Of a DNA stretch of 64,000 nt, positions 16,624-34,082 are shown in pieces. The notes under the pieces were generated by a model, which did not search any database, was not told where the DNA came from, and saw only the letters and a program-made list of their open reading frames with translations. Location of the stretch: the NCBI GenBank assembly GCA_024275955.1, contig JAJRYD010000023.1:1-64000 (forward strand). The letters run 5' to 3'. The first letter of the stretch is position 1. Every line of letters starts with the position of its first letter. Made by a program: the position numbers and the translations under genes. The DNA is from Nitrospirota bacterium. GTDB taxonomy: Bacteria; Nitrospinota_A; UBA7883; JACRGQ01.

Positions 16624-16932
16624 CTATACAGCCACCTTCGGATACTTTGTTTTAATCGCCTGTCTCTCGGCTTCCAGCAATTCCAGCCCACTGCCCGCAG
16701 GGATAGTTATTACCTTCAAAAGCTCATCAACAAGCTCTCCTATAGCTGGATATTCACTCGCCCTGTTCTCTGCGTAAGTCGGCAGGATTGTAGGGTCAGC
16801 TGGGTCGGGGGTGTTGCCTGCTATAACCCAATCTTGGTATTCTTGCCAAGCTGTACCATTTTTAGTTATGTCGGTATGCATGCCATTCTCTATTTTAACT
16901 ACACCTGTTTCATTCAATTTATATAAAGCCAT
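16624..16932 (-). CDS. Small phage tail-fibre-associated protein
   Basis: A 102-residue protein, last in the phage-like operon. It opens MALYKLNETGVVKIENG and contains WQEYQDWVIAGNTPDPAD, a pattern frequent in small proteins encoded just after tail-fibre genes in many prophages (fibre chaperone or tip-attached proteins). The ATG at 16932 follows the fibre-gene stop by one base; a frame extension to 16947 would overlap it. Function inferred from position only. Confidence 0.65.
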   Translation of the reverse strand: MALYKLNETGVVKIENGMHTDITKNGTAWQEYQDWVIAGNTPDPADPTILPTYAENRASEYPAIGELVDELLKVITIPAGSGLELLEAERQAIKTKYPKVAV

Positions 16933-16933
16933 T

Positions 16934-18145
16934 TTATAACTCCGCATTAAGTTCTAAGTATTCACCATTAACATTAGGATAAAACCCACCAGCATTGTTA
17001 GCTGTTGCTCCGGCGACTGTAGGTTGTATTTCTATCTCTGTAATACTTTTTTTGTATGTAATACCAGATAGAGTTAATGCACCACCACCAGTTTGATACC
17101 GCCAATTAGCTATAGTTATAGCTGTTGAGTATGTATCAGTTCTCATAGGGACAGGGTGAGATAAAAGACAGCTACCTTTAGTTGTACTTGAAGTCCACCC
17201 GTTAATAGCTTGGTATTGCACTCCGCCGTACCGCCAATAATACCTTTGACATAAAGCTAACTCTTGCCCATAAGGCCTATGCTCAAATGAAGTAGCTACG
17301 GAACCTGCTTCAACTTGGATTAGTTTCACCGTGCCAGCCCCGCCAGCACTGGAAAATTTAACCGTTGCATCTGTACCGCCTACAAGAGTGAACGTATCAC
17401 CGCTTGCTTTGGTTACCCCATCAACAGTACAAACCGTATCGCCGGTTGCTGTGAACGAAATTACATAAGTACCACTTTGAATGTTCAAACCTTCGATAAC
17501 CTGCTCGATACCGCCGATAGGAAGCGTCATGGTAACGACATTATCCGTAGTGCTGAATGTAAGAGCTTGACCACTTGTAACTACTCTCCATCTGTCAAGA
17601 GTGTACTGGTTCGCTCCTGTTGTAACTATGGTGCTTTCATAGGCTCTTTGATTCACGAGAGGGTTGCCGTTGATGATGAGGTTTTTCCTAGCGAGATTCG
17701 CAAAAGCTTTAACCGATTGCTGACTAGGTGCTTTTGCAGATGAATCAGATGCCATATCATCTTCGTCTAACAAGAAGAAATGCTTCGTGCCATCGGCTAA
17801 ATGGGCATCTACTTGCGCGTGACTGTTTGTGCCGATATTTGACAACCCTGCATGATTTACCTGCGCTCCATCACCACCTGAATGGTCGTGGCCATCGCCG
17901 TTGGTTACCCCTTTGGCTGTATCCGAAACAGCTACCCACGATACTCCATTGTCGTAATAGAGAGCTTTGCTATCCGATGCGAAATAAAACCTCTCGGCCG
18001 TTCCTGCCGCCGGGCGGCTTGCGAAGGTTCCAACCGTCAGCCTGTTCTTGTCTAGTAGAGTCAGATTTTCGTCATACTCGGTTTTATAGTTTGAGCCGAG
18101 CGCGCTTGTTTTAAGACCGTGTGTGAGTATATTTTCAACTGTCAC
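16934..18145 (-). CDS. Phage tail fibre protein
   Basis: A 403-residue fibre-like protein. An N-terminal region with low-complexity segments (GDGHDHSGGDGAQVNHAG) leads to a His/Gly-rich stalk typical of trimeric fibres, and the C-terminal part has FEHRPYGQELALCQRYYWR, a motif recurrent at the end of many phage tail fibres. It starts with GTG after TTTGGAGG. It probably contacts the host surface together with the preceding discoidin-domain protein. Confidence 0.8.
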   Translation of the reverse strand: MTVENILTHGLKTSALGSNYKTEYDENLTLLDKNRLTVGTFASRPAAGTAERFYFASDSKALYYDNGVSWVAVSDTAKGVTNGDGHDHSGGDGAQVNHAGLSNIGTNSHAQVDAHLADGTKHFFLLDEDDMASDSSAKAPSQQSVKAFANLARKNLIINGNPLVNQRAYESTIVTTGANQYTLDRWRVVTSGQALTFSTTDNVVTMTLPIGGIEQVIEGLNIQSGTYVISFTATGDTVCTVDGVTKASGDTFTLVGGTDATVKFSSAGGAGTVKLIQVEAGSVATSFEHRPYGQELALCQRYYWRYGGVQYQAINGWTSSTTKGSCLLSHPVPMRTDTYSTAITIANWRYQTGGGALTLSGITYKKSITEIEIQPTVAGATANNAGGFYPNVNGEYLELNAEL

Positions 18146-18147
18146 GA

Positions 18148-19245
18148 TTAACCTCCAAAGTTATAGCCAAAGTCAATGCCGAATCCGTTTGTTAGGGACG
18201 GCCTATTTGTAATAAGAAATTTTGGGTAAATAGAATGAGCTGTCGCTACCTGTTGCGGAATGTTTATCCTTAGCTGGATATGCCGCGCCGTTCCGCTTGG
18301 TATAACACCAACCGAGAGACCGCTGGCAACGGGGTTGCCGCCTACCGGCGTGAACAAAGCTTGAACGTCATCGACGATACTGCTACCACTAACGCCGTTA
18401 CTTTTAAGCTCTAGCCATTTCGCATCCAGCATCTCCTGCCCATCTTCGTTCAGCCCTCCAGCGAAGCTTCGGTCAACAAGGGAGAGAGAAAGAAAAACTT
18501 CGGTCATCGAAAGAGTTTTAAAGTTCCCTAACCTGTTATTCCACAAATGAAGCTCCACCTCTTTTGAAACTTCGCCGCTGTTTAAAAGGCCGAGCCGGAC
18601 ATTCTCCAGCCTATCTCCAGATGGTGAATATATTTCGACAACCGGCGGAGCGATAAAATAGAAACCGAGAATAGATTTTTGAGAACTCTGATAGGAGTGA
18701 TAGCTAGCCATCAACGACCTGCTTTGACTGGTGGGGTACGAATATCTTTGCACTACCTTCTTCGTGGTGCCGTTCCTTGAGTTGTAGGTCGCACGCGCAG
18801 ATTTAAGAAGTGGGATCTTTCCCATCATCTCTATCTCTTTTGCGCCGGCGAAGTAACCGCTAAACGGACTGTACCAATGATCTATTATCTCCAATTTATA
18901 ATAGAGATAACTGGTCGAATTAGAAAAAGTAAACTCGTACCATTGGTCGGTGTTAGACGATGTCGCACTCTCAAGCAAAAGGCTGTAGACCGAATCATCG
19001 TTGGAGCCATAAAGCTTAAAATTCTTTATAAGCAGATAGCCGGTATCGTAGTCTGGCCTTAGTCGTAGCTTCGAGACAGCTTTTGCGCTGACAAGCTGAT
19101 ACTTAATCCATTGCGGAGAGCTGGTAGAACTCGCCTGCCAAATAGTCGAGACACTGTCGTCAAACGCGTTAGACGGGTACTGACTTCCGTTCGTGCTAGA
19201 AGCGGTAACGATGCCGCCTATACATAAATCGCTAGAGTAAGCCAT
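18148..19245 (-). CDS. Phage structural protein with F5/8 type C (discoidin) domain
   Basis: A 365-residue protein. Residues ~10-145 look like a galactose-binding/discoidin fold: TASSTNGSQYPSNAFDDSVSTIW then QWIKYQLV, KLRLRPDYDTG and FKLYGSNDDSVY are the usual jelly-roll landmarks. The remainder is unrecognised. Such domains bind carbohydrate, so a receptor-binding role fits its place next to the fibre gene. The ATG at 19245 is preferred over a TTG two codons earlier; the gene overlaps or abuts its neighbour. Confidence 0.7.
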   Translation of the reverse strand: MAYSSDLCIGGIVTASSTNGSQYPSNAFDDSVSTIWQASSTSSPQWIKYQLVSAKAVSKLRLRPDYDTGYLLIKNFKLYGSNDDSVYSLLLESATSSNTDQWYEFTFSNSTSYLYYKLEIIDHWYSPFSGYFAGAKEIEMMGKIPLLKSARATYNSRNGTTKKVVQRYSYPTSQSRSLMASYHSYQSSQKSILGFYFIAPPVVEIYSPSGDRLENVRLGLLNSGEVSKEVELHLWNNRLGNFKTLSMTEVFLSLSLVDRSFAGGLNEDGQEMLDAKWLELKSNGVSGSSIVDDVQALFTPVGGNPVASGLSVGVIPSGTARHIQLRINIPQQVATAHSIYPKFLITNRPSLTNGFGIDFGYNFGG

Positions 19246-19247
19246 AG

Positions 19248-20024
19248 TCAAACAGTATCGGCCTTAAAGGTAAGCGAAAAATAATTCTCAGGATAACGTT
19301 CGGTCGTCGCTGTTACGACACGCTTTATCCAGACCCCGTAGCTACCGCCGCTCGCAAGGCTACCTATCGAAAGAGCGTTTGCTTCGCTGTTTGCCGTGGA
19401 GAAGGTCAATGCTGTCGGCACTGTTGTTTCATTTGCAACGCTCTGTATCGCTCCAGCCGATGTAGCCTCTATCGCTATCTCTACAGTATCGTCCACGAAC
19501 GGGGTGTTGGTATCTATCCAAACTTTCATTGCGCCCATCGAGAAGGCAGAATCGTTTCTAACTATTAAGGCACGGTACTCCGTACTGCCTGCCTGCGCTT
19601 GGGTTGAGCTGACAGAATCGAAAAGATTTTCCATAAGATTAGAAAGGGTAACGCTGTCCGACTGACTGGACGACGGCAGGCTTGCAGAGGTTACGGTAAC
19701 TACCGCGTACTTTGTCGTGTCATTAGAGTAAAGCTGATACGTTCCATCTGTCGAGACATCGGCCGCCGCACCTACCGTATCTCCGGGGGCTGTGTAGCTT
19801 AACGTCGTTGCGGCAAAATCGAAAGAGAGCGTTGCCGTTCCTATGCCACTACTAGACGAGACATCGTCAATCAGAACGCCTGTTACGTTTGCTAGAGCTG
19901 TTGTCGAGAGCGACTTTAGAACCGTGCCAGAGCGTTTCCCGCCAAGTGATGAGTTTGGGTCGCTTTGCGCGTCACCATCGGTTGCCACTCCGGTAAGGTA
20001 TATGCCTATATCCATCTCCGCCAT
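19248..20024 (-). CDS. Phage structural protein with a domain shared with the head decoration-like protein
   Basis: A 258-residue beta-rich protein. Residues ~46-126, from NVTGVLID to VTSASLPSSSQSD, align with residues ~115-189 of the 216-residue protein encoded at 26404-27054 (NITGVVVN to VTSASLPVADQSD). The C-terminal half (YRALIVRNDSAFSMGAMKV onward) resembles an Ig-like or coat-like module. It is probably displayed on the particle or tail. Function unknown. Confidence 0.65.
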   Translation of the reverse strand: MAEMDIGIYLTGVATDGDAQSDPNSSLGGKRSGTVLKSLSTTALANVTGVLIDDVSSSSGIGTATLSFDFAATTLSYTAPGDTVGAAADVSTDGTYQLYSNDTTKYAVVTVTSASLPSSSQSDSVTLSNLMENLFDSVSSTQAQAGSTEYRALIVRNDSAFSMGAMKVWIDTNTPFVDDTVEIAIEATSAGAIQSVANETTVPTALTFSTANSEANALSIGSLASGGSYGVWIKRVVTATTERYPENYFSLTFKADTV

Positions 20025-20033: not shown

Positions 20034-21017
20034 CTATATTGTTAACTGTCTGCGTGCTTTTATTGTCATCCGTTCGCTTTTCGGCATGACGCGCCAGCCT
20101 ATTTCATAGACCTCTACTATTTCGCTTACCACCCCGCGCTGAAAATCAAGTTTTAGCCTCATGCCCAAATCTATATACGGATTAACCAGCGGGAGAGAAA
20201 AGCGGACTGTTTTGGAATCGACCAGTAAACCATCGACAATATCGCCGCCATTAAATGCAAACTGAAAATCGGCGGCGGGATAGCTTGGCCTAAAAGCCTT
20301 TCCCGCGTCTGGTTCCTGCGCGAATGTATAAACTATTTTCCCGTTGCGGTCGCCGTAGCGGATCCTCTTCTCTCCAGTAAGAGGAAGTAGTTTGGCCTGC
20401 TTTTTAATAAGCACCTCATCGGCCGCCATAAGCGCGTTTGGAAAAATTTCGTTACAGGCGGAGACCTTTTCGGTATTAAAAAGAATTACAGGCTCCAGAG
20501 GGTTAAGAACGGCATTGGCTACAAGTTTCGCCTCTACTGTTTCGGTAGAGGCGAAAGGGGGCAAATAGCTTGTAATGCGGGACGCGACTCCTGTTACATC
20601 TTCGACTTTTATTTCTATAGTACCGGAATTGGCCGTATAGCTTTCCCGCACTCCCTCCGGTGAAGGGACTCCGGTAAGAAGCGGTATTTCTTTATCGCCC
20701 GAAGCGTTGCCGACAACGGAAAAAACTTTGATGCGTAGGTTGTCGTTAGGCACAAGTATCTCTTGCCAAGCTCCCACGGTTCTTGGATTTTTAATTTCCG
20801 GCCATGCGACGGTAAGAGTTGCCTGACTGCCTCTATATGAAACGGTTCCGGCAAAGCCCGCTATATCTTCCAGCTCGGTTTCTACATTGCCGTTTGCCCA
20901 TACAACGCGAAGCCTTCTGCCGCCTTGAGAGACCGGCCCCTGATAGCTAGATGACAAGAGGCTTTTGAGCGCCTCGCTGTTAGAAACGGCAAGCGTCATA
21001 TTAAAATGAGAGTTCAC
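20034..21017 (-). CDS. Phage structural protein, possible tail hub, unrecognised
   Basis: A 327-residue, mostly beta protein without signal peptide. Visible segments are RRLRVVWANGNVETELEDIAGF and a long mixed C-terminal half (YGDRNGKIVYTF, RMTIKARRQLTI). Its place before the receptor-binding genes fits a hub or baseplate-like component, but no motif decides this. Its start overlaps the stop of the preceding gene by four bases. Confidence 0.55.
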   Translation of the reverse strand: MNSHFNMTLAVSNSEALKSLLSSSYQGPVSQGGRRLRVVWANGNVETELEDIAGFAGTVSYRGSQATLTVAWPEIKNPRTVGAWQEILVPNDNLRIKVFSVVGNASGDKEIPLLTGVPSPEGVRESYTANSGTIEIKVEDVTGVASRITSYLPPFASTETVEAKLVANAVLNPLEPVILFNTEKVSACNEIFPNALMAADEVLIKKQAKLLPLTGEKRIRYGDRNGKIVYTFAQEPDAGKAFRPSYPAADFQFAFNGGDIVDGLLVDSKTVRFSLPLVNPYIDLGMRLKLDFQRGVVSEIVEVYEIGWRVMPKSERMTIKARRQLTI

Positions 21018-21355
21018 AATTCACCCGTTACCTTGAAGGAGATCTTTACGTCACTGTTTCCGGTTTCGTTTAAAATTGATTCGACAGATTCAAGCAGTCC
21101 TTGATAGGAGCTTCTCGAAAATGAAAAGCCGACAGGCTTGCCGTTGGCTAGAACCGCTATCAACGACGCAAGCCCGTCTTGAGGTAATTCTGCTTCTACA
21201 ATCATTTCGATATCGGACGCGTATGAGCCTAGATCGCGCGACCGCGACCCTTCAAGAGTTTCCACCGTTGCCACTCTTCTTGGGATTTTTAAAGGTTCTT
21301 TTGTTTTTAGTTCAAGGTAAAAACCTGAATCGGTCAATGAAAATAAAACTGCCAT
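21014..21355 (-). CDS. Small phage structural protein, unrecognised
   Basis: A 113-residue protein starting at the ATG at 21355, with GGAG seven bases upstream; the frame is open to 21391 but that would run into the previous gene. It is alpha/beta with no known motif. It sits between the large Cys-motif protein and the hub candidate, all tightly packed, so it is probably a tail or adaptor component. Confidence 0.55.
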   Translation of the reverse strand: MAVLFSLTDSGFYLELKTKEPLKIPRRVATVETLEGSRSRDLGSYASDIEMIVEAELPQDGLASLIAVLANGKPVGFSFSRSSYQGLLESVESILNETGNSDVKISFKVTGEL

Positions 21356-21357
21356 TA

Positions 21358-22998
21358 CTATTCTCCGTAAAAAAATTCGATACGCTGACATTCAAGCTTT
21401 GCAGGGTTTGGATAGTATGGGTCAAACTCGCCGGAAGGTTTTGCCACGTTTCCCTGTAGATAAAATGTGACTAAAGAAAGAGAGGGAAAGTTGCCCTCCA
21501 AGTTTATATCGGGATTAGCCATAAACGGAAACGCCGCTAGAAAATCGCGGTAGATATTTCTGGTGACGGAAGTCTGCATTCCTATTTCAAAATAACCTGG
21601 GTGCAGACCGTAAGACCACGGCGCTGGGTTTGCCGGAGTGATGTCCGCGCCGTCGTAATTAAAGCAGCGGTAATGAAGCTCTCCTGCCTTGCCGAAAGAT
21701 ACAAGGTCGTCATCCATCGGCACGTTGTACCAGAGCCTGCCGGAAGGCGGAGGTGAATTTAGATAGCTTCCCTCTGCTGTCCTTATCGGCGTCGGCCTAA
21801 AGAGGGCGTGCTGTTTATCCCGCGAAACACCGGGGTAGGCCCCCCTTGCGTATGAAAAATCCTGCGTGCCGGGAGCTGTGTAGACGAGTTTAAAATTTCT
21901 GTCGAGGTTATTTTCAAAAACGGTGCCGTATTTATCACTGCCGTTAGGGTAACTGTAAAGAGATGAATTTATCCGCGAGCCGTCCAGATAATCGGGCCAT
22001 GGAGATTTATTAAAGATAAGTACCATACATGCCGGTAGCTGTAGTTTCGAATCGTATCCAAGCCCTGCTTCGTAATCGAACTGCGTCAACAGGTTTACCG
22101 ACATAAAAAGCTCCTTCTCTCCGCAGAGAAGCGGGCGTGATATTGACTTTTCCGTTACGACCGGCGGAGAGACTATCAGCGGGTCCGCGTCGTATTTTCT
22201 CTCAAGCATAGGGGCTGGATAAATTAGCCGGAGGGCATCTTCCTCAACTGAGGATATCCCATTTGCTTGAAGCGGAAGCGACCGCATCCGAAGGGCGTCG
22301 CCTGCCCATACCGTGGCTGGAATACCGTAGGACATCCCTTCATTTATATAGACACCGGCTGTTTTGGAATTCCATGAATCTATCTCATTTTTTTCCGGAG
22401 CTGTTTTTTTAAAGGTGAACTTTCCATCGCCAGAGAGGTCGGCGGAAGGTGTCAGATAGTTGCGCCAGAACTCATAACGGGAAGAGCATCTTCTTGGAGA
22501 CTGCGAACAGCCAAACCCTGCTACCCACGGCTCTGCGTTTCCACTTAAGAGGCAATCTGGGTCAAGCGGGTCTATCTTATCGTGTATAACGGCAACGCAG
22601 TCGCCAATCTGATAATCGACAGAATCGTTTATCGACGCGCAACCACCCCCGACAAAACTAAGCCTGCCTTTCTTTACACCGCTTACGACCTTGCTTAAAT
22701 CTTGCGATTCACTTTTGAGCATTTTGTCGGAATAAAAATAGTAGCCGACAGCTGTGGCAGGATTCGCTTTGGCAAGCAGAGAAACATCTGTCCATCTTCT
22801 AGATGTTTTGTACGGCAGTAGCCTGAAACTGCACGGCTTATATTTGCCGTTGGGCGTAAAGAGGCGGTACTCTACGCCGGTTTTATATTCATACCCTTTA
22901 ATTCCCGACTGAACCTTATGCGAGACCCCAAGATCGTCCTCAACAAGGTACCAATCCGGCCTGCCCTCTACCATTGAAATTACTTTTGCTCTTGCCAT
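21358..22998 (-). CDS. Large phage tail protein with four-cysteine motif, unrecognised
   Basis: At 546 residues this is the largest protein of the phage-like operon. Cysteines at 134, 149, 164 and 171 include a C-x6-C pair (GCSQSPRRCSSRYEFW), reminiscent of the iron-sulfur cluster ligands of lambda gpL-type tail-tip proteins and the Cys-rich end of GTA hub proteins. The rest is beta-rich and Pro/Tyr-rich. No catalytic motif is seen. The role as tail-tip or hub protein is an inference from that motif and gene order. Confidence 0.55.
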   Translation of the reverse strand: MARAKVISMVEGRPDWYLVEDDLGVSHKVQSGIKGYEYKTGVEYRLFTPNGKYKPCSFRLLPYKTSRRWTDVSLLAKANPATAVGYYFYSDKMLKSESQDLSKVVSGVKKGRLSFVGGGCASINDSVDYQIGDCVAVIHDKIDPLDPDCLLSGNAEPWVAGFGCSQSPRRCSSRYEFWRNYLTPSADLSGDGKFTFKKTAPEKNEIDSWNSKTAGVYINEGMSYGIPATVWAGDALRMRSLPLQANGISSVEEDALRLIYPAPMLERKYDADPLIVSPPVVTEKSISRPLLCGEKELFMSVNLLTQFDYEAGLGYDSKLQLPACMVLIFNKSPWPDYLDGSRINSSLYSYPNGSDKYGTVFENNLDRNFKLVYTAPGTQDFSYARGAYPGVSRDKQHALFRPTPIRTAEGSYLNSPPPSGRLWYNVPMDDDLVSFGKAGELHYRCFNYDGADITPANPAPWSYGLHPGYFEIGMQTSVTRNIYRDFLAAFPFMANPDINLEGNFPSLSLVTFYLQGNVAKPSGEFDPYYPNPAKLECQRIEFFYGE

Positions 22999-23319
22999 TT
23001 ATACGTTTGTCACCGTTAAAAGGTTTTCCTGTTTTATTCTGATAATCACTTCTTCCATCACTCTGCTTACGAGGTCGTGTATCGCTCCGTCGGCACCATC
23101 CACTTTTACCTCTACGCTGTACTGTTTTTCGCTGAGCAATGCTCTGTTAAGAACCTCTAGCTTCGTGGATAGATCTTTGACTGTCGCGGAGAGTTCTAGA
23201 AATATCTGAAGGTCAGCTCCGCCCTGTCGCCTAGCTATAGCAGAAAGATTTCGGTTCACCTCAGTAAGCTCTGCTAGTATTTCGTTATCTATCGCTATAT
23301 CAGAATTTTCTTGTGCCAT
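22999..23319 (-). CDS. Small coiled-coil phage protein
   Basis: A 106-residue protein predicted almost wholly helical. Residues ~10-65 show a heptad pattern (EILAELTEVNRNLSAIARR, then LSTKLEVLNRALL). It lies between the possible tube protein and the large Cys-motif protein, where siphoviruses encode the tape measure. If it has that role the tail would be very short. No other evidence of function. Confidence 0.55.
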   Translation of the reverse strand: MAQENSDIAIDNEILAELTEVNRNLSAIARRQGGADLQIFLELSATVKDLSTKLEVLNRALLSEKQYSVEVKVDGADGAIHDLVSRVMEEVIIRIKQENLLTVTNV

Positions 23320-23332: not shown

Positions 23333-24313
23333 CTAAACGGTTTCTACCGATGGTTTTTGACAGGGAAGAAGATTTATTTCTCCCTCCATAACCGAGCCGG
23401 GGCTATAGAGAGCCGAAGTTTCGAGATGAGCGTAGTAAAGCTCTTTTCTGCTACCTGACGAATCCGGCATAAACTCTATAAAGCGGATAGTGCCGTCTGC
23501 CCTCCTTATGAGGTCGGCCTGCTGGGCGGAAAGATTCAGCTTAGTAAGACCGCTTTTTACCTTCCCTGCGGAAAGTTTTCCTATTGCAAAATCAAACTCC
23601 GCCGCCATTACCGGAGGCCTGAACGAAACAACATCGAGAAAAGCCAACTGCGGTTCGCAGTAGGTGATATATACGTTCGCCGTTACTAAGCCTGTATGAA
23701 TGAGAGGGAGTCCGCTTCTAAAGCGTACCTTAGCTTTGTAGGGAAAAATTTCGGCTTCCGGCATATGCGAAAGCTCCGGCTTGAAAGAGATTTCCTTATC
23801 CAAAATCTTTGCCGAAGCAGATGTGAGCAGTGTAATAGCAGCCAGCTCCACTTTGCCAAGCGGGATAAACGGAGGGCCTCCATTGGCTCCTCTTACAGCA
23901 GATACCGTTGCTCCTTCAGCTCCGTCCAGCGTTAAGAGTGTCGCTGTTGCGTCTGCTATTATGGAAACGATTTTAACGTTTGACGATGATGGGCGCGTAA
24001 CGGCAAGATTGCTAACGGCATTTACCAAAACCACAGCTCCGCCTATGCATATACTTCCTCCGCATATATCGACGGCATCATTCACCCCAGATAAGGCTGG
24101 ATAAACGAGACAACCGTTTCTCAGGCCATCTGGTCTTACTACCGGTCTTCTGTCGATACCGTTCTCATCTTTTTCGCAAAGTGAAAAGCGCGTACCTGCG
24201 GTGGTAAAAGTGAGATGGTCTCCAGCGTCTGTCATTAGCGAAGGACCACTGGAGATATATCCATCTTCCAGCTTCAGAGAGATATTTTCGGCGGTTGGAA
24301 TTTTTACGTTCAT
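23333..24313 (-). CDS. Phage structural protein, possible tail tube, unrecognised
   Basis: A 326-residue beta-rich protein, first gene after the gp37-like tail-terminator gene. It has a Gly/Ala/Val-rich middle (ICGGSICIGGAVVLVNAVSN) and a C-terminal domain with YYAHLETSALYSP. Position suggests the major tail or tube protein, but I see no diagnostic motif. The ATG at 24313 has no competitor nearby. Confidence 0.5.
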   Translation of the reverse strand: MNVKIPTAENISLKLEDGYISSGPSLMTDAGDHLTFTTAGTRFSLCEKDENGIDRRPVVRPDGLRNGCLVYPALSGVNDAVDICGGSICIGGAVVLVNAVSNLAVTRPSSSNVKIVSIIADATATLLTLDGAEGATVSAVRGANGGPPFIPLGKVELAAITLLTSASAKILDKEISFKPELSHMPEAEIFPYKAKVRFRSGLPLIHTGLVTANVYITYCEPQLAFLDVVSFRPPVMAAEFDFAIGKLSAGKVKSGLTKLNLSAQQADLIRRADGTIRFIEFMPDSSGSRKELYYAHLETSALYSPGSVMEGEINLLPCQKPSVETV

Positions 24314-24323: not shown

Positions 24324-24761
24324 CTACTCAAATGTTTCGATTTTCCATTCCTGTCTGTAAACCGATTGGCGCGCGTTTTTGGCGTAAGGTTTTTCCGAAA
24401 CTCTTTCCATAGGCTGGATGTTAAGCCCGATAGTGCTACCGGAAAGAGTTTGACGCACCGTTTCCATCGCATTAAAGATTCCCGCGGTTCCTGCGTCGCC
24501 CTTTGCGGCGGAAGAACGCGAGCGAAGGTTGCGGGCGATAATGTAAATATTAAAATAGAACTCAGATCCTCTAAGTGACACTGTCCTCTTTTTTGAATCT
24601 ACAGTCCGCTCGAAGGAGACCAAAACGAGTGGAGGTTTTGCCACCTCTTTTAAATAGGCATCTTCTCCAAGTTCGCCGTGAAACGCTTTCGCGTTAAGAG
24701 AGGCAGAGCTTAGCGCGGCGACGATAGCATCTTCTATCTGTCCTATCGAATACATTACCAA
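24324..24761 (-). CDS. Mu gp37-like connector / tail terminator protein (DUF1834)
   Basis: A 145-residue protein resembling the DUF1834/gp37 family: IEDAIVAALSS at the start, the strand KPPLVLVSFERT, then FYFNIYIIARNLRS and the C-terminal RQEWKIETFE. In Mu this protein closes the head-side end of the tail. It overlaps the end of the DUF1320 gene by seven bases, keeping the Mu order gp36-gp37. Confidence 0.72.
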   Translation of the reverse strand: MVMYSIGQIEDAIVAALSSASLNAKAFHGELGEDAYLKEVAKPPLVLVSFERTVDSKKRTVSLRGSEFYFNIYIIARNLRSRSSAAKGDAGTAGIFNAMETVRQTLSGSTIGLNIQPMERVSEKPYAKNARQSVYRQEWKIETFE

Positions 24762-25263: not shown

Positions 25264-26250
25264 TTAAGCGCCGCCTGTTGAACCGAAGATAAGGTGGGGC
25301 AGGCCGTAACCTGCGTTGCCTCTGTAATCGACGCCGTAGATATATTCCTTACGCATGAAAACATTTTCATCCTGCAGATTGTCGAGACCGACGAACTGCG
25401 GATCACGCCGCGATTGAAAGATAAACGGCTTGGCGGCGCGGCTGGAATCTGCGAGGAACCAATAGGTAGGATTTGCCGCAAGTTCCGGGGCTACCAGCAG
25501 GTCAGCAGAGTCTTTCCAGATATTGGTTTCGCCGTTGGCCGATTTATCGGCCCGCAGAATAGCCCTTGCTACCGCTTCGAGCTGAGGCGGAACGATAAGC
25601 ATCGCCGGTGTTACCCTTAATGGACGGTTCTCTTCGTTTACGAGAGACATCATCTGCGAACGCGCGTTCTCGTATTCCGTGGAGCTAAGGACGGCTGTTC
25701 CTCTGTTGCTCCATGCCGACATATCTCCATTTGGATGGTCGACAGCGAAGAAGGTTTTACCGTCAAAACCGTTCGCTACAAATCCGTTCAGAAGCAGGTC
25801 GAAGATAAGCTCATCGGGATGCTGTCTTGCCGATTCGCCAAGCTGTTCAAACATCGGCCTGTAAAGCCCTATCGCGTCGTCTTCTAGATCGTTTCTATCT
25901 ACAGAGACTGTCGCCTCGAAATCTCTATTCTTTATAATAAAGCCATCGACGCTAAGATCTTTGACCGCTCGCTCTCCTATCCACTCGCGAAGGCCCGGGA
26001 ACTGCCCGAGCCACTTATACTCCTCTTGCCTTGCGGATGAAGGAACCAAAACCGCAAGCTTATTTACCGCTGTTGCGGCACCATCATACGCCTGCTGAAA
26101 AATTGTCTTGAAACCTGTGTAGGCAGATTCTAGCGACGACTGGTTTACAACGACGCCTAAAAGAACAAACCTTTCGAAAATATTCGCTGAACCGCCGTTA
26201 TCGGAAAAGATAGCGGTCAGCGCTCCTATTAAAGTTATTATCAGTTTCAT
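25264..26250 (-). CDS. Mu gpT-like major head (capsid) protein
   Basis: A 328-residue major capsid protein of the Mu gpT family. Landmarks are KWLGQFPGLREWIGERAVKD, FEATVSVDRNDLEDDAIG, FFAVDHPNGDMS, LRVTPAMLIVPPQLEAVAR and DLLVAPELA. The first ~35 residues (MKLIITLIGALTAIFSDNGG) differ from the usual start and look hydrophobic. AGGAG 12 bases upstream supports this ATG. A strong inverted repeat precedes the gene. Confidence 0.92.
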   Translation of the reverse strand: MKLIITLIGALTAIFSDNGGSANIFERFVLLGVVVNQSSLESAYTGFKTIFQQAYDGAATAVNKLAVLVPSSARQEEYKWLGQFPGLREWIGERAVKDLSVDGFIIKNRDFEATVSVDRNDLEDDAIGLYRPMFEQLGESARQHPDELIFDLLLNGFVANGFDGKTFFAVDHPNGDMSAWSNRGTAVLSSTEYENARSQMMSLVNEENRPLRVTPAMLIVPPQLEAVARAILRADKSANGETNIWKDSADLLVAPELAANPTYWFLADSSRAAKPFIFQSRRDPQFVGLDNLQDENVFMRKEYIYGVDYRGNAGYGLPHLIFGSTGGA

Positions 26251-26403: not shown

Positions 26404-27054
26404 TTAACTCCTCGCCGCTGTTGAGATGTCGATAAAGACCGAACTTGCGGAAATATATTCGATAACCCTTCCGGCTTTTAGATGGCGCATCTGTATGTTA
26501 TCGCTCTGGTCGGCAACCGGAAGCGAAGCAGAAGTTACCACAACCTCTACCGTTGAACCGTCTGTAGCGGTAAGCGTGTAGCTACCATTTGTCGAAACCG
26601 TTACAGCTGTTCCGCCTCCGTAGGCGATCGTCGTACCTGCCGCTATAAAAGCTAGGCTTTTAGTGCCGCCTTTTGTAAGCGCTGTCCTGTTTACTACTAC
26701 GCCGGTGATGTTTACCGGCTGGGCGACTATTCCGTCACCGACGGTATTGTCGTCGACCACATAAACATCTTTTGCTAAGTTTGCCTGTGTTAGACCGGCG
26801 CTGTTCATCTCGAAAAGGCCGACCATATAGCCTTCGGCCGTTTTCCCGCCGTTGGCGCCGTTTGTGTTGTCGCTCTCTTTTCGTGAAACACCAACAAAGC
26901 TCTCGCCTGCCGTATCCGATGCCGGCACCATGTAGCCGTTGGCATCCGCGCTGACCATCGCCCCTGAATAAATACGCGCCGTTGCCGCTACCGGAAGGGC
27001 GAATATTATTCCCTGCTTTCTCTCTGTCTTTCTATCTGCTGTTAAAACTGCCAC
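26404..27054 (-). CDS. Head decoration-like protein (DUF2190-like N-terminus plus Ig-like domain)
   Basis: A 216-residue protein between protease and capsid genes. The N-terminal ~115 residues (IIFALPVAATARIYSGAMV, VGVSRKESDNT) resemble small capsid-stabilising DUF2190-like proteins. The C-terminal ~75 residues form a beta domain also found in the 258-residue protein of this operon. It probably decorates the head surface. Confidence 0.65.
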   Translation of the reverse strand: MAVLTADRKTERKQGIIFALPVAATARIYSGAMVSADANGYMVPASDTAGESFVGVSRKESDNTNGANGGKTAEGYMVGLFEMNSAGLTQANLAKDVYVVDDNTVGDGIVAQPVNITGVVVNRTALTKGGTKSLAFIAAGTTIAYGGGTAVTVSTNGSYTLTATDGSTVEVVVTSASLPVADQSDNIQMRHLKAGRVIEYISASSVFIDISTAARS

Positions 27055-27066: not shown

Positions 27067-28038
27067 TTACTGGTTAAAACTTTCAAAAACTTTTCTCGAT
27101 ATCCCTAGAAGCTTGTTGATCTTTTCCTGCGTTTCGCTGAGTGGAAATTTTCCATTCCCTTTCTTTGCAATTTCGACAAGCTCTCCCATCTGCACCATCG
27201 GCCTGCTGTTGACAAGAAAACTGCCGAACCCTTGAGGGTCCGACACTGCGTAGGAGACTGCCCATTCCTTCTGGGCTGGAAGAATTTTCCCTTCGGCTAT
27301 CGCAGAATTAACTTTTGCTTCGAGATCTCTTTGCTTTATTTCCGCAAGCTCTACTTTAAGCGTCTGCCACTCCTCTACCGTCGGCCTGCCCTCTTCCTGC
27401 TGTAAACGGTTCGCATTTTTTTCAATGGCGGCGGCAACCTCTACCGTAGATATTTCTATAGGCAAACCTGCCGCCTCTTTAAGCGCGGCTAAATCCTTTT
27501 GGAGCGATTCCACTTCGCCAAGCCTCGTAAAAAGGCTTTCCGACAGTTCGGAATTTCCTGCGTCATCAGGAAGGCCAAGAAACTCCTTTAGCCGTGTTAA
27601 CAATTCATCCATTTTCTCCTCCATCTCAAGTTGATTAAAAAGCGGCTTCATAGCCGGTATGTTTGGGTGGTTGGTAAGACCGAGGCTCACCAACTTTTCT
27701 ATATAAAGTTTTCCATCTTTTGACTCTTCCGGGCTGAACGTGAAGACAGGCGAGAGGTAGCGAAACTTTTTTTCCCGTATCATCGCCTCTGCTTCTTTTG
27801 TCCATTCCAGCTCTCCGTAAAGGCCGTCCGGCTCTGCCTTTAGCGAATCTGCCAAGAGCAATCCTGCCGTTTGCGCATCTTTCGATTCGAAAGATGCGTG
27901 CGCAAAGTCGACAGGTATGCCGGCCTGCTCCGCTTTGGCTATTTGCAAAACCCTTTGCAAGGTATCTTCGTTTATTATCTGTAGGCCGCGCTCATGCTGA
28001 AAGTTTCCGAGTGGAACTGCAAGCACTCTTCTTTTCAT
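27067..28038 (-). CDS. Mu I (gp32)-like phage protease / scaffold
   Basis: A 323-residue protein of the Mu gp32 protease family. N-terminal landmarks are IPVDFAHASFESKDAQTAG, EWTKEAEAMIREKKFRYLSP and LVSLGLTNHPNIPAM. The C-terminal half is helical (about 130-260), as expected for an internal scaffold. Its ATG overlaps the portal stop by four bases. The protease matures the head and removes the scaffold before packaging. Confidence 0.88.
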   Translation of the reverse strand: MKRRVLAVPLGNFQHERGLQIINEDTLQRVLQIAKAEQAGIPVDFAHASFESKDAQTAGLLLADSLKAEPDGLYGELEWTKEAEAMIREKKFRYLSPVFTFSPEESKDGKLYIEKLVSLGLTNHPNIPAMKPLFNQLEMEEKMDELLTRLKEFLGLPDDAGNSELSESLFTRLGEVESLQKDLAALKEAAGLPIEISTVEVAAAIEKNANRLQQEEGRPTVEEWQTLKVELAEIKQRDLEAKVNSAIAEGKILPAQKEWAVSYAVSDPQGFGSFLVNSRPMVQMGELVEIAKKGNGKFPLSETQEKINKLLGISRKVFESFNQ

Positions 28039-29267
28039 TTTGTCACCTCAGAGAGAAGCTGGTCGTTTTTTGCCGGTTCGCTTATGCCGGCCGCACCGTA
28101 AACCTGCGAAAGAGAAACAGGCACGCCCATCTCATGGAGCTTTTTGAGGCTATCGAGTTTTTCCATACGAGAAGAGCCGTCATCAAAATCGGTTACGAAC
28201 GACGGGTAGCTTTTCATTTCGCCGAAATTCATTTTTACAAGCGGGATTATAAAATCGCGGGTTAAGGTTTCATCGAGAGAGGCACAGTCGAAACGGACTA
28301 TATCCCGCCTTACCATGTCGTGAATATTGCCGAGGGAGTATGAACCGCTTTTGCCTTGCTCTGTTGTGAGTGTTTGGCCAAGCACACGCTTGCTCTTCTG
28401 CGCGTTGAAAAATTCGACGGCATTTTGAAAAAGATCGTGGCTACCGCTTAGTTTCGATTCTATAAACTCAATCGTGGTATCATCGCTAATAACCGCCGCC
28501 GCATCGGAGCCTAGATTGTAGACAGCTTTTTTTAATATCTCCCGCGATTTTTCATCCGCTGTCGGCTTGAACTTCCCTAATCTTAACGGAATGCCGTAAA
28601 TATCCATAAACGACATCCAGTCTTTCATCGAATAATTTGTAAAAAGAAAGTACCACGCGAGGCCACGGTAAAGCCCGCCGCGCAAAGGGCCGCCAGCGGA
28701 AGCGCGGTAGGTATGATATATGAACTTTTGCCGTGGAAGCTTTTGGCCGTTGATCTCACCGTTTGGCAGGTAGTTTGGAAAGCCTAGTACCTCTTCCGGT
28801 TTTTCAAGGCTGGCAAAGGTAAAAAGCGACTGCGGGCAGAAGTTTATTTTTTCTATTACCATTAACCCGTCTACCACCTTGTAGATAAGCTCGGCTATGG
28901 AAAAACCTTTGCCTATCGCTGTCAGCAGATCGTGCATAATCTGCGTGCGGCCTTCAAGGTTTTCCCACACGGATCTTACAAACTCCGCCTGTTTTTTTGC
29001 TTCCGCCCTATCGGAGGCTGGAACTACTCTTCTTAGTTTTGACGCGGCGGACGATATCCGTGTCTGCATGACGGTTGCGAGATGAATATCCTTTTCTTCC
29101 ATCTCGTCAAAGAACTCCATCGCATTTTTGCACTGGCCTGAATCCAGCTCCCTTAAGAGCAAGGCAAGCTTTGCCGGCGTAACGCTTCCCGAATAGCCGC
29201 GCCTCCATACTGCTTGCCCCGCGTTTATAATTCCGACATCCGGTTTGAACTTTTGTAAGCTGTTCAT
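28035..29267 (-). CDS. Mu gp29-like portal protein (DUF935)
   Basis: A 410-residue portal protein of the DUF935 family: MEEKDIHLATVMQTRISS, VERR-like SVWENLEGRTQIMHDLL, the GPLRGGLYRGLAWYFLFTNYSMKDWMSF segment (read here in two parts), YGIPLRLGKF and TLTRDFIIPLVKMNFG. The portal forms the DNA-entry ring of the head. In Mu and most relatives the next gene is the MuF-type head morphogenesis gene; here the protease gene overlaps directly. Confidence 0.9.
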   Translation of the reverse strand: MNSLQKFKPDVGIINAGQAVWRRGYSGSVTPAKLALLLRELDSGQCKNAMEFFDEMEEKDIHLATVMQTRISSAASKLRRVVPASDRAEAKKQAEFVRSVWENLEGRTQIMHDLLTAIGKGFSIAELIYKVVDGLMVIEKINFCPQSLFTFASLEKPEEVLGFPNYLPNGEINGQKLPRQKFIYHTYRASAGGPLRGGLYRGLAWYFLFTNYSMKDWMSFMDIYGIPLRLGKFKPTADEKSREILKKAVYNLGSDAAAVISDDTTIEFIESKLSGSHDLFQNAVEFFNAQKSKRVLGQTLTTEQGKSGSYSLGNIHDMVRRDIVRFDCASLDETLTRDFIIPLVKMNFGEMKSYPSFVTDFDDGSSRMEKLDSLKKLHEMGVPVSLSQVYGAAGISEPAKNDQLLSEVTK

Positions 29268-29271: not shown

Positions 29272-30771
29272 TTACCATCTCCATTTTTCTGTTTTGGTGA
29301 AATTCTTTTGCCTTGTTGAAATTGACTCGTATGAAACGCCTGCCTCTTCTGTCTGACGCGAAGCGTGGCAACAAAGCAGTATCGCCCACGCTATATCGGC
29401 GTGATGATCCGGCGATGACGCTACGGTGAAGATTATGTTCCCCGATTCCGTAACTTTCTGCTCTATGCTTCCAAGCTGTGCGATGATAGATCTTTCAAGA
29501 GGCAGGCGAAGCTTTCTATCCAGCAGCATCATCCGCGCTTTGTTTACCATCTTCGATTTTATCTGCGACGTAAAATGAACCGGAATGACGATAGAGCCGT
29601 AGGCCTGCTCCAGCTTTTCGGCAAGCGGCAGGCCTATGCCTGTGGCATCTATCGCCAGCCTTGTGATGCCGTTTTGCATCGTAGCCTTTAAAATATTTTC
29701 CTGGCTTGTGAAATCTACATCTCTCAGGCGCACGAGCATCCTCGCTTCCATTGTGCCGTCAACCTTGTCCATTACAAAAAGTACCGATTCGTCTCTCTTT
29801 CTTCCTACATCGAAACCGGCTAACAGCCTTCCTTTGACGCTCTCTTTTAGCCATTGCCATTCGGAGGCAAGCGGCACTCTGCTTAGTGAAAGGAACTTCA
29901 GCTCCGCGTCCGGCTAAACGCCGAAACTTGGCGTGGCATTTTCATGTAGCAACTCCACGGTAAAAACGGAACTTTCTGAATCTAAAAACTGTAGTTCCGA
30001 CTCCTGCCTGAATGCCGGTTCCGGCATTGACGAATAGATAGCGAGCATAGAGGGGGTCCCGAAACTTTTTACTCTCTTGGCTGTCACAAGTTTCGGGGCC
30101 TCCCTCTTTGCGCGGTTTATATCTACGCATAGTGAAGAGCATTCCCACCACGGGATGCTGTAAAGGTTGAAATTTTCGAGCTTGCCTTTTGATATATCGT
30201 GAAAGATTCCGCTCTTGCCGAGGGGGCTACTTTCTATTACAAGCGAGTGCGATGCTGACCTTGACGTAACGTGCAATGCTCCTTCGTATATCTCTCTGGC
30301 GGCGCGGCAATGCGGAAGTTCTGAAATGCCTACGTCTCCGCCTTTGCCTCTTGGTGCTTTGGACGCAAGGGAACGGAGTACCGACCTGTTTCCATAGGCA
30401 TCTTCGAAAACCAGCTCTGTTTTTGAACGGCCTACCCTTTTCTTTTTGAATCTTTTTGGGATTGATTCGTACATAGCATCGGCATACTCTATCTTTCCTT
30501 TCGCCTCTTCTAGATTTAGGCTTATGAATGTGCCTGAGTAGTTTCTTTGCAGTTGCGAACGGATAAACATTTTAAGAGTCATAACCCAGCTACCGCCGAC
30601 CCTTCTGCTTTTGAGGATGGAGATAAACTTTGACTCATCTAGAAGAAAACTTTTTTGCCAATCGTCTAAAGTTACGGCACCCCCTTCCACCTTTACAAGA
30701 TTTGCGGCGAAGTTTACAGGGTTTAGCAACCAGCTAAGCATATCGCCATGCAAAGCAACCGTCTTTGACAT
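29272..30771 (-). pseudogene. Mu gp28-like large terminase, interrupted by one in-frame TAG
   Basis: Two frames encode the large terminase. The ATPase part (29914-30771, 285 residues) has LDDWQKSFLLDESKFISILKSRRVGGSW, here the Walker A-like R-rich loop of gp28 proteins, and FEDAYGNRSVLRSLASKAPRGKGGDVG; the latter two are quoted in pieces. The nuclease part (29272-29877) begins AGFDVGRKRDESVLFVMD and has IAIDATG-like RLAIDATGIG. The TAG at 29916-29914 is followed in the same frame by 12 sense codons leading into the nuclease part, and the joined length of 499 fits gp28. The second frame has a GTG but no ribosome-binding site. Either a nonsense mutation, amber read-through or a split enzyme. 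Confidence 0.82.
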
Positions 30772-30773
30772 CT

Positions 30774-31424
30774 TTAGCTACCTTCCTTTTCCATTAGATA
30801 TTTTTTATGCAGTTCCTGCATAAACTCGATTTCGGGGAGTTCCTTTTCGTCTATCAGGCCTTTAAATTTCTTAACGATTGATTGTTTTTTGCTTTTAAAC
30901 TCTAAGGCGAGCGTTTCGCTGGTAGACAGCTCATTTTCGACAAGCTCTATTAACTTTAGCGCGAGTGCTGATGAGAGCTTCTCGCTTGACGGCTCTCCTT
31001 TAACAGCGCGCAGTGATGAGATATTCAGCTTTCTATAGTCATTCGTGATTTTGATTACATCTTTTATATCTAGCGACTCAAGGCCTTCTTCCTGCATCGC
31101 GTAGCGCCTGAGAGAATCGACATAGACGGCATGTTCCAGCGCCGCCTGCAGGTGCGAAACATCTTGCCCTTCTTTCGCGCCTTTTAGAAATTCGCCAACA
31201 ATCTCCGCGCCGCTTTGCTTGTATGGGAATATCCTTTTAGCATCTGACGGGATAGGCTTTGCGCGCTTAAAGCTTTCTATCACTTTTAGCGTTACCTTTT
31301 CTTTGAGCTCTCTTCTTATCTGCCCTTGTATCTGCCTTCCTGTTTTGCCGTTGACCAGCCCTTTTTTGATTATTTCGATAACTGTTTTCGAGAGGCGAAG
31401 CTCTTTTTTTCTTTTAGTCGGCAT
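30774..31424 (-). CDS. Mu gp27-like small terminase (DUF3486)
   Basis: A 216-residue helical DNA-binding protein of the DUF3486 family, which recognises the DNA to be packaged. The N-terminus (RLSKTVIEIIKKGLVNGKTGRQIQGQI) forms a helix-turn-helix, with a long helical middle and a C-terminal tail ending in LHKKYLMEKEGS. The ATG at 31424 is chosen; an upstream extension to 31472 would overlap the winged-helix gene by about 60 bases. It precedes the large terminase by two bases. Confidence 0.82.
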   Translation of the reverse strand: MPTKRKKELRLSKTVIEIIKKGLVNGKTGRQIQGQIRRELKEKVTLKVIESFKRAKPIPSDAKRIFPYKQSGAEIVGEFLKGAKEGQDVSHLQAALEHAVYVDSLRRYAMQEEGLESLDIKDVIKITNDYRKLNISSLRAVKGEPSSEKLSSALALKLIELVENELSTSETLALEFKSKKQSIVKKFKGLIDEKELPEIEFMQELHKKYLMEKEGS

Positions 31425-32013
31425 CTTCGCCACCCCATGCTTCGGAGGAGCTGTTCTCGACGACATCGACACCTTTAGCGGTAAGGCGCGCCATGAAAAC
31501 CTGATCGCCGCCGAGGCTGAAAGACTTGATTTCCAAAAGCTCGTTCTGCCCCAAGTACCATATGTGAAACCTAATCTCCTCTAGGAGGAGGTTTAAAAAA
31601 CCTGAATCGCGAAACTCCTCCAATATCTCGGTATCTTCATTAAAAAACGTTTGGAAGGAATAGCAGTAGGCTAGGATGCCGCGCCGTATCTCCTTTTTAT
31701 ATTCAAGCTTCGCGAACTCTCTGCATGAAGCTTCTATGCCTCTTACTTTTATCGCGCCGTCGAGAAGATCTATCCCTTTTGTAGTTACCTGTATCGAATG
31801 TGCCGACCATGTTTTGCGAAGCGTGACGAGCCCTTTTTGCTGGAGATAATCGAAAAGCTCTCTTGCGTGCTCTATCGTTAAAGCCGAAAACCTATTTTTA
31901 AGGTTGGCGACAATCGCCCTGTCGGTTAATGGATGCAGGTAAAGGTCTGATGCCTGCTGAAGGATATGTTTTCTTACTACTTTCTTCTTCGCGACATTAA
32001 GGTTTGGTGTCAT
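31414..32013 (-). CDS. Winged-helix protein of the phage-like operon
   Basis: A 199-residue protein whose first ~100 residues form a winged helix (HPLTDRAIVANLKNRFSALTIEHARELFDYLQQKGLVTLRK in pieces, then VTTKGIDLLDG). The C-terminal half repeats a similar pattern (FHIWYLGQNELLEIKSFS, LTAKGVDVVENS). Similar proteins occur between lysis and terminase genes of Mu-like phages. It may regulate transcription or assist packaging. Start GTG or ATG near 32013 is supported by four-base overlap with the upstream stop. Confidence 0.65.
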   Translation of the reverse strand: MTPNLNVAKKKVVRKHILQQASDLYLHPLTDRAIVANLKNRFSALTIEHARELFDYLQQKGLVTLRKTWSAHSIQVTTKGIDLLDGAIKVRGIEASCREFAKLEYKKEIRRGILAYCYSFQTFFNEDTEILEEFRDSGFLNLLLEEIRFHIWYLGQNELLEIKSFSLGGDQVFMARLTAKGVDVVENSSSEAWGGEDAD

Positions 32014-32432
32014 CTGATTTTGGTCCCTCCATTGTTAAGTGCTTGGTAGATGGAGTCGATCTTATGATTGATAGTCGCTGTGAACGCTCCGAACTCCTGC
32101 CTAGTTACAAATAGATTGGCATAAGCGGTTTTTTGCGCTCTTAAATGGTTTTTAATTTCATTCTTATTAAACCTGTTTTGGTCTTCTATCTTTTTGTCTA
32201 ACGCTTTAATTTGACCTTCGATCCCAGTGACTATCGACCTGAGAGCAATCTTCATTTCTGCTTCGTTTCTTTTAACCATTCTCTTTAGGTCGCTACCTGT
32301 TTTATCCATCCTGCTGAAACCAGATTCCATTTTCCCATCTATTGAATGAAGGGTTCTTTTGGCGAGGAAGAAAATTACTGACCAGCCTACGCCAAGAACG
32401 AAAACTACAAACTGAGCTATTACTTTTTCCAT
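32010..32432 (-). CDS. Small phage membrane protein with coiled coil
   Basis: A 140-residue protein: an N-terminal membrane helix (FVVFVLGVGWSVIFFLA, about 8-24) followed by a long coiled coil (about 35-90). This form is common among accessory proteins in the lysis region of Mu-like prophages (DUF2730-like). Function unknown; it overlaps the winged-helix gene by four bases. Confidence 0.6.
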   Translation of the reverse strand: MEKVIAQFVVFVLGVGWSVIFFLAKRTLHSIDGKMESGFSRMDKTGSDLKRMVKRNEAEMKIALRSIVTGIEGQIKALDKKIEDQNRFNKNEIKNHLRAQKTAYANLFVTRQEFGAFTATINHKIDSIYQALNNGGTKIR

Positions 32433-32444: not shown

Positions 32445-32837
32445 CTAGAGCAATAAGAGTAGAATCACCGCGCCGCTCGCTGCAGAGACGGCCCACGTTA
32501 TAAATCTTTGGCCCGCAACACGGCGGCGCAGTGACTCTTCATTTTTTTCCATTACTTCTACGACATCATTCAGGTACTCGGCATGTGCCAGACATTCGGC
32601 TGATTCCTTTTCCAGCCCTGCAACTCTTTTTTTCGCGTTTTGGAGACGCGCTTCCGTCGCTTTGAGGCCTCCTTTCAAAAGCATGTTGATTTTGCGGCAG
32701 GTGGAGACCTCTTCTTTTAGCGACGCGTTTATCTTTTTGTACTGCTTCTGCTTTGAAGATGACGCCGCTAGAGCAACAGGCATGGCCAAGCCAAGAAAAA
32801 GGAAGACGGCTAGAACCGTGGATAATCTACGCGCCAT
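32445..32837 (-). CDS. Phage membrane protein with signal peptide, coiled coil and C-terminal helix
   Basis: A 130-residue protein with a signal-type N-terminus (VLAVFLFLGLAMPVALAA), a helical coiled middle rich in Lys and Glu, and a C-terminal membrane helix (WAVSAASGAVILLLLL). The layout would span the envelope, as do spanins, but no lipobox is present. Its place next to holin and lysin supports a lysis role; this is inference. Confidence 0.55.
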   Translation of the reverse strand: MARRLSTVLAVFLFLGLAMPVALAASSSKQKQYKKINASLKEEVSTCRKINMLLKGGLKATEARLQNAKKRVAGLEKESAECLAHAEYLNDVVEVMEKNEESLRRRVAGQRFITWAVSAASGAVILLLLL

Positions 32838-33142
32838 TATCTAAGCCTTTCCAGCAGTAGCCGTTTGCTCTGCAACGTTTCTGCTTTTAATTCTAGTTTT
32901 TGGATTTTTTTCTCCAGCTCTTCTATTTTTCCGGCTAATTCTTTGTCGGTTTGTTCGTAAAGTTTTTGTTGTTCCTCATTTTTCTTTTTGCGAATATCTT
33001 CAAGCTTGGCTATCCGTTTTTTGTATGGAGAGATATCCGGCCTCTCTGGCGGCGACAAAAAAAGAGCAAACGACACGACAACAAAACCTGCCAAAAACAG
33101 CCAGATAAACGGACGGCGGATATCTTTTTTAAATCGCTTCAT
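32837..33142 (-). CDS. Possible inner-membrane spanin-like protein
   Basis: A 101-residue protein: N-terminal membrane helix (FIWLFLAGFVVVSFALFL, about 12-29) then a periplasmic coiled coil of ~65 residues. This matches the shape of Rz-type i-spanins, which connect inner and outer membranes during lysis. Overlaps the lysin gene by four bases and the next gene by one base. No o-spanin lipoprotein was found embedded in it. Confidence 0.5.
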   Translation of the reverse strand: MKRFKKDIRRPFIWLFLAGFVVVSFALFLSPPERPDISPYKKRIAKLEDIRKKKNEEQQKLYEQTDKELAGKIEELEKKIQKLELKAETLQSKRLLLERLR

Positions 33143-33714
33143 CTATTCCAGCTCCTGTAGAGAGGCTCCCACCTGTTTAATATTTTTTTCGGGTATTCAA
33201 TATTTTCACGGCAGAAAATATCTTTCCTGAATTTTAGGCAACAGTTTAGATTTAGATCTCTGCATGAATTGAGCTCTTTATAAATCCAGCCGAGTCCGCC
33301 GTTGTAGGCTCTTAAGGTCAGTGGCCATCTTTGGTTTTTGGGCTGACCTTTTTTTTCAATCTTTTGGTAGAGGAACTCGTCGTAAAAGACCATAGCCTTT
33401 ATCGACCATTTCCAGTCGTACCTGATATCTGGCCTTGCCCCTTGAGCTACTTTGAGCGTTGAGTATCTTTTTGATATCCATCGCGCGGTTTGCGGGGTGA
33501 ACTGCGAAAGGCCAGCGGCATACTTTGATTCTGCCTTAGAGTTCCAGTTGGACTCTTGTCTTATCTGCGCGGCGAATATAGATACCTTTTGGTCCATTCC
33601 CCAAACGAAGCGAACCTGCTTTATGAGGAACCTTTTGTACTTGAGGTTGACTCCGTCCCGCGGCGCCATCGCAGAGGGGATGACTAACATTATGGCTAGA
33701 AGTCCGTTAATCAT
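33139..33714 (-). CDS. Lytic transglycosylase (SLT domain), phage endolysin
   Basis: A 191-residue wall-degrading enzyme. After an N-terminal signal-like helix (MINGLLAIMLVIPSAMA) comes the SLT fold: FAAQIRQESNWNSKAES with the catalytic Glu, AAGLSQFTPQTARWI, then LRAYNGGLGW. Such enzymes cleave the glycan strand to release particles. The ATG at 33714 overlaps the holin stop (ATGA), so they are coupled; the frame is open to 33933 but that part lies inside the holin gene. Confidence 0.88.
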   Translation of the reverse strand: MINGLLAIMLVIPSAMAPRDGVNLKYKRFLIKQVRFVWGMDQKVSIFAAQIRQESNWNSKAESKYAAGLSQFTPQTARWISKRYSTLKVAQGARPDIRYDWKWSIKAMVFYDEFLYQKIEKKGQPKNQRWPLTLRAYNGGLGWIYKELNSCRDLNLNCCLKFRKDIFCRENIEYPKKILNRWEPLYRSWNR

Positions 33715-34082
33715 ATTCCGCCTGCCACTGCGAATATAATGGAAACTGCCATTGCCGAGATGAGAATCGTCTGGCTCAACGCTATTAAGGCTTTGGAAAG
33801 ATTTTCTGGTTTTCCGTTTTCTGCCTCCTCTAGCACTTTTTGGTAAGAGCTTTGGAGGTCTATATATGGAAACATCGATTTGCGTACAAAGTGGAAAATG
33901 ACAAGGCCGGCCCCTACGACGGCGGTTTTCCACAAAATCAGCCTTATATCATTCCTTGTTCCAAAGACGAGGAACGGAATGAAACAAAGAAGATAGGTAG
34001 GAAATAGCCTCACCAGACCTAACCTCACTTTTTCTGAGATTTTCTGCTTTTGCTCTTTGTTGTTTTTGCTCTCGTAACCCAT
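33711..34082 (-). CDS. Putative phage holin
   Basis: A 123-residue membrane protein with two or three hydrophobic segments (LFPTYLLCFIPFLVFG, LILWKTAVVGAGLVIFHFV, and a C-terminal TILISAMAVSIIFAVAGGI). It is the first gene of the phage-like operon and is coupled to the SLT lysin. Size and topology fit Mu-type holins, which permeabilise the inner membrane. No ribosome-binding site is obvious. Confidence 0.7.
   Translation of the reverse strand: MGYESKNNKEQKQKISEKVRLGLVRLFPTYLLCFIPFLVFGTRNDIRLILWKTAVVGAGLVIFHFVRKSMFPYIDLQSSYQKVLEEAENGKPENLSKALIALSQTILISAMAVSIIFAVAGGI

Follow-up and report, generated by a model that had tools for sequence, protein, structure and literature searches.

The phage-derived gene cluster at positions 16624-34082 of the 64,000-nucleotide window (the whole stretch of DNA analysed, from a 2.45 Mb Nitrospinota assembly) is best read, with a probability of roughly 60%, as an element of the gene transfer agent (GTA) type, in which the late genes (lysis, packaging and head) of a Mu-headed phage, together with a reduced tail, have become immobilised and are inherited with the chromosome. 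An earlier note had proposed it as a GTA candidate, and candidate status is supported by genomic sites common to several genomes, by the agreement of host and cluster trees and by the lack of a linked mobility gene. Given that the cluster is handed down in place without replication or insertion genes, it probably encodes a virus particle that the host has domesticated. On this reading it was immobilised in an ancestor of the window's Nitrospinota family, and probably of the whole class.

The cluster forms a single operon of 24 open reading frames (ORFs) on the minus strand, 98.7% coding, in which neighbouring ORFs mostly overlap or nearly abut, as the earlier note had described. It encodes a holin, an exported lysin, Mu-type packaging and head proteins, connectors and a reduced tail; the original assignments (holin, SLT lysin, terminase, portal, protease, capsid, connectors and a short tail set) are borne out by Pfam and PHROG matches with E-values far below chance. 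The host-like composition was likewise confirmed, with 47.3% GC in the cluster vs 46.1% in the remainder. The description as largely intact holds for all ORFs except that of the large terminase (TerL), which has an in-frame TAG. The host flanks are memo-rpiB-glyA on one side and tRNA-Leu(tag)-tig-clpP-clpX on the other, with 120 bp separating the cluster from glyA and about 230 bp from the tRNA gene, and the portal gene is present in a single copy per genome. The cluster is endogenised, as host genes abut both of its ends in the window genome (G000) and in a genome of another genus (G002).

The operon begins with a holin candidate (33711-34082; this and all following features lie on the minus strand), a membrane protein of 123 aa recognised by position and hydrophobicity, with homologues in the same place in G003, G005, G006 and G008. 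Next to it lies an SLT-domain endolysin with an N-terminal signal peptide (33139-33714; PF01464, 2e-10; phrog_669 endolysin, 5e-34), the start of which is most likely 33714 and not 33933, judging from the ribosome-binding site ahead of it and the signal peptide. Sequence inspection only points to a small spanin-like protein with an N-terminal transmembrane segment and a coiled coil (32837-33142), and likewise to a spanin-like partner with a signal peptide, a coiled coil and a C-terminal transmembrane segment (32445-32837). A lipoprotein or membrane protein of the phrog_462 type (32010-32432, PHROG match) precedes a winged-helix protein (31414-32013) in which two stretches match phrog_436, a single-domain protein of Mu-type packaging regions; this tandem form, of 195-200 aa, occurs in all Nitrospinia clusters, whereas the phage proteins are single-domain and 99-107 aa long. 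The lysis cassette is gone in G002, and the lysin of G008 carries a stop.

The probable small terminase (30774-31427) was assigned by position and has a variable N-terminal part, which is HTH-like and poorly conserved in the window family (f1) and absent in G011; the small terminases of known GTAs are reported without an HTH, whereas that of the window family keeps the HTH-like N-terminus. TerL is represented by two ORFs because of the in-frame TAG at 29914-29916, the N-terminal ATPase part (29914-30771) ending at this codon and the C-terminal RNase H-like nuclease part (29272-29877; PF17289, Terminase_6C, 4e-12) following it. Both domains lie in one frame save for the TAG, which falls within a variable linker, and TerL is an uninterrupted single ORF where it was read in relatives (G002, G003, G011, G013, G017, G018 and G019). 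The TAG may have arisen by mutation, may mark a naturally split protein or may be an artefact of the assembly, and the window genome's copy, if the codon is real, may be inactive or translated as two polypeptides.

The head and packaging genes are present in Mu order, as judged from Pfam and PHROG matches and comparison with Mushuvirus. They encode a Mu-type portal (28035-29267; PF06074, Portal_Mu, 7e-89), a head maturation protease of the Mu I type (27067-28038; PF10123, Mu-like_Pro, 8e-44), a virion structural protein of the decoration type (26404-27054; phrog_1731, 6e-27), a major capsid protein of the Mu gpT type (25264-26250; PF10124, Mu-like_gpT, 2e-95), the head-tail adaptor Gp36 (24755-25186; PF07030, 3e-26) and the Gp37 neck or tail terminator protein (24324-24761; PF08873, 2e-12). 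The window genome also holds a second Mu-like head fragment (G000:C28 9748-13522, L146) with a protease, a decoration protein and a capsid protein that is 39% identical; this remnant lies beside host genes and is cut by the contig end.

The tail is much shorter in gene content. A probable tail tube protein (23333-24313; phrog_30644, 4e-30) has a homologue in the tail-tube position of Marinobacter phage PS3, and it is followed by a 106-aa protein (22999-23319) which, by its position, appears to occupy the place of the tape measure. Further along are a 546-aa tail protein (21358-22998) for which neither phage records nor viral contigs yielded a relative, a 125-aa tail protein (21014-21391) whose order is kept in G002, G004, G005 and G006, a 327-aa tail or hub protein (20034-21017) without a relative in phage records, and a virion protein (19248-20024; phrog_13135). 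Cross-matches reveal that the latter shares a domain with the 26404-27054 product, an internal duplication kept across the family. The operon ends with an F5/8 C (sugar-binding) tail protein (18148-19251; PF00754, 2.5e-12), a tail fibre (16934-18145; phrog_4492, 2e-28) and a small fibre-associated protein (16624-16947; phrog_9114, 1e-6). No sheath or tape-measure family was matched among the cluster proteins in Pfam and PHROG, the largest protein having 546 aa, in line with the claimed absence of a sheath and a long tape measure. Two genera have the tail tube together with a tape-measure-like protein of ~210 aa, the window family has the 106-aa version, and the G011/L046 lineage is without either protein; when the two lineages' tail proteins were compared by profile, no relation emerged. 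AlphaFold models of the tail-tube candidate (pLDDT 34, no usable fold) and of the 546-aa protein (pLDDT 57, small OB-fold matches only) gave no assignment.

Neither MuA nor MuB was found in the cluster or its flanks, and integrase and rve domains had no match on its contig, both occurring elsewhere in the genome. A Mushuvirus MuA query returned nothing in nine genomes, a search run without a positive control, and a PF09299 search that was silent in its own controls was not used as evidence. No direct repeat of at least 10 bp joins the cluster ends, the tRNA-Leu 3' end is not duplicated, and there is no room for early phage genes between glyA and the fibre gene or between the holin gene and the tRNA gene. 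The lack of transposase and integrase genes and of att repeats proposed from the window alone was thus upheld, and the wider search for MuA and integrase found nothing linked to the cluster, its MuA part being weakly controlled.

The earlier note had named as a check whether relatives carry the locus at an equivalent position, and the outcome was strongly positive, with sites common to several genera. The junction with tRNA-Leu-tig-clpP-clpX is identical in three genera, in two of which glyA also adjoins: in G002 the cluster lies 37 bp from glyA with its other end before tRNA-Leu-tig, and in G006, which belongs to a third genus, tRNA-Leu-tig-clpP again adjoins the lysis end. A second site is common to G013 and G017, which represent two genera outside the window's family. 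A third is common to G005 and G008, two species of one genus with the same neighbours at the lysis end; the G008 contig ends inside the cluster. G010, a third species of that genus, has the same flank, but there the beginning of the holin gene runs directly into fibre-like sequence, which marks a deletion scar. ORFs other than TerL are open in the window genome and keep their order across genera, where identities are about 40-75%. The cluster was not found in G001, G007, G009 and G014, a patchy distribution. From this comparison, the element is old and mostly stationary within a lineage, has been relocated or re-inserted between some lineages and has sometimes been lost. A histidine-kinase-like gene adjoins the lysis end in one genus (L178 5083-6639; L210 5695-6471). 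A locus in G012 (L042/L043, G012:C79 60-79 kb) was excluded because it represents another lineage that branches more deeply. It encodes a tape-measure-like protein and an HTH protein resembling a repressor, and may derive from true prophages close to the ancestor.

A host tree based on Tig, ClpP, GlyA, ClpX and RpiB and a module tree based on seven cluster proteins have five of eight splits in common, against a maximum of four among 5000 random trees, and conflicts between them are located at weak or deep nodes. The distances of host and cluster are correlated (Mantel p 0.002) and similar in size, with within-family means of 0.371 for the host and 0.385 for the cluster proteins. The host topology is mildly rejected by the cluster data (AU p 0.04), and given that the cluster position also differs between family branches, some horizontal movement or relocation is possible. 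In one close pair (G018 and the IMG/VR contig L046) dN/dS was 0.153 overall, 0.11-0.25 by gene and 0.13-0.16 for TerL and portal. Vertical descent is favoured because of the common sites and the tree agreement, as an active phage could equally be under purifying selection.

Upstream of the holin gene the flanks cannot be aligned, and TTTCGGTTANNTTTCG (16 bp) is the only stretch conserved across the family; in seven genomes (window 34083-34102, L132, L030, L032, L178, L179 and L210) its last base lies a few bases from the holin start codon. It belongs to an operon-start element, TTTCGGTTAAATTTCGGTTC (34083-34102, minus strand), which immediately precedes that codon, has two 7-bp direct repeats with an 11-bp period and is invariant in these seven genomes; TTTCGGTTANNTTTCG is kept even in the lysis-less G002 and in the G010 scar. 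Exact matches number eight in 24 Nitrospinota genomes, seven of them at the pre-holin position. The eighth, a second copy in G002 (38929), precedes a radical-SAM gene, has the opposite orientation and probably arose by chance. Two 7-bp direct repeats at an 11-bp period are a layout bound by response regulators of the OmpR/PhoB family, and the element may be the target of a putative host regulator.

Among known phages, Mushuvirus mushu (Faecalibacterium phage FP_Mushu), a Mu-like transposable phage, resembles the cluster in gene order from holin through neck (holin, lipoprotein, DNA-binding protein, TerS, TerL, portal, protease, decoration, major head, adaptor and neck), with 38% identity in the portal and 50% in the capsid protein. 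However, its repressor, MuA, MuB, Gam, late activator, minor head protein, sheath, 795-aa tape measure and baseplate have no recognised counterpart in the cluster. Compared with Mu-like transposable phages in general, the cluster has the head and packaging genes but neither linked MuA/MuB nor the contractile tail with sheath and long tape measure. Phage PS3 encodes a homologue of the tail-tube-like protein (29% identity), but it is temperate and has an integrase and a 911-aa tape measure. Relatives of the 546-aa and 327-aa tail proteins were found in no phage record. Of 2.9 million IMG/VR viral contigs, two carry a related portal (52% and 37%), one of them probably being the same class-level element, and none was matched by the tail-tube or 546-aa proteins; with the capsid protein as query, 19 Mu-like relatives of greater distance (33-53%) were obtained, which is what the head family would lead one to expect. 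This scarcity is supportive only, because the pattern-based scan can miss relatives.

GTAs have been defined by particle proteins derived from caudoviricetes, a fully endogenised genome and mostly vertical inheritance or co-diversification, further criteria being the encapsidation of mostly random host DNA, a head too small for the element's own locus and the delivery of DNA to other cells (Kogay et al., 2022; PMC9662315). Caudoviricete-derived proteins, endogenisation and co-diversification (AU p 0.04 against exact congruence) were all found here, and by these sequence-testable features the cluster is a strong GTA candidate, not a proven GTA. The alphaproteobacterial RcGTA and BaGTA and the spirochaete VSH-1 likewise combine caudoviricete-derived structure and lysis genes with endogenisation and mostly vertical descent (PMC9662315), whereas the present cluster has a Mu-type (gpT/Portal_Mu) head, belongs to another phylum and has a putative particle activity. 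Its ancestry is presumably independent of the known GTA types. We do not claim a first Mu-headed GTA, as the Desulfovibrio Dd1 agent may have a head of this type.

Vertical inheritance under purifying selection would be equally predicted for a domesticated particle with another use, e.g., a competitor killer released by lysis, or one with incidental DNA cargo, and the interruption of TerL in the window genome, where capsid, portal and tail genes are open, points the same way. We nevertheless consider this unlikely, as TerL and portal are under constraint in the pair mentioned above, TerL is whole in the relatives read, and a tail-only killer could dispense with packaging genes, yet the heads are kept; a tailocin was rejected outright on the presence of portal, capsid and terminase. 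Somewhat less probable is an old, decaying prophage remnant, a reading to which the TerL TAG, the G008 lysin stop, the lysis loss in G002, the G010 deletion and the second Mu-like remnant would all lend themselves. Neutral decay over family-level divergence would leave neither open and syntenic ORFs nor a dN/dS of 0.15 nor a preserved non-coding element.

An active temperate phage, with early genes unrecognised or located elsewhere and with repeated insertion at tRNA-Leu, has in its favour that tRNA genes are common attachment sites, that the sites differ in G003, G004, G005 and other families and that the class-level version is found on one IMG/VR contig. It is improbable, however, given the lack of space for more genes at the cluster edges, of an att repeat and of an integrase on the contig, as well as the single portal copy and the near-congruent trees. 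Capsid-encoding satellites are characterised in outline by their size and missing early genes, and with its 17.5 kb the cluster fits this outline; a capsid- and packaging-encoding satellite using helper functions is still very improbable, since the cluster has its own lysis, fibre and tail genes, is without an integrase or regulator and has long co-diverged with its host.

The GTA-type reading can be extended, more tentatively and at somewhat less than even odds, to a class-wide Nitrospinia GTA that arose independently from a Mu-headed phage, with stepwise shortening of the tail and a host regulator acting on the 11-bp direct repeat. Experimentally proven GTAs are confined to a few lineages, and a literature search found no paper linking GTAs with Nitrospinota. 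A Mu-headed GTA in the Nitrospinota, relatives of nitrite oxidisers that live in the ocean and the subsurface, would represent an independent domestication, would indicate that heads of transposable phages can be exapted and would add a route of horizontal transfer in a group important to the marine nitrogen cycle. We infer how particles would be regulated, formed, filled with host DNA, released and delivered as follows. A host signal from upstream would act in some of the cells via the direct-repeat element before the holin gene, and the operon would be transcribed as a single unit; Gp36, Gp37 and a very short tail would join the Mu-type heads, which the terminase would fill with chromosomal DNA, and holin, lysin and the spanin-like proteins would lyse the cell, with recipients taking up the released DNA. 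Conservation of the operon-start element makes the control of the cluster directly testable. ComEC is present in all eight genomes tested.
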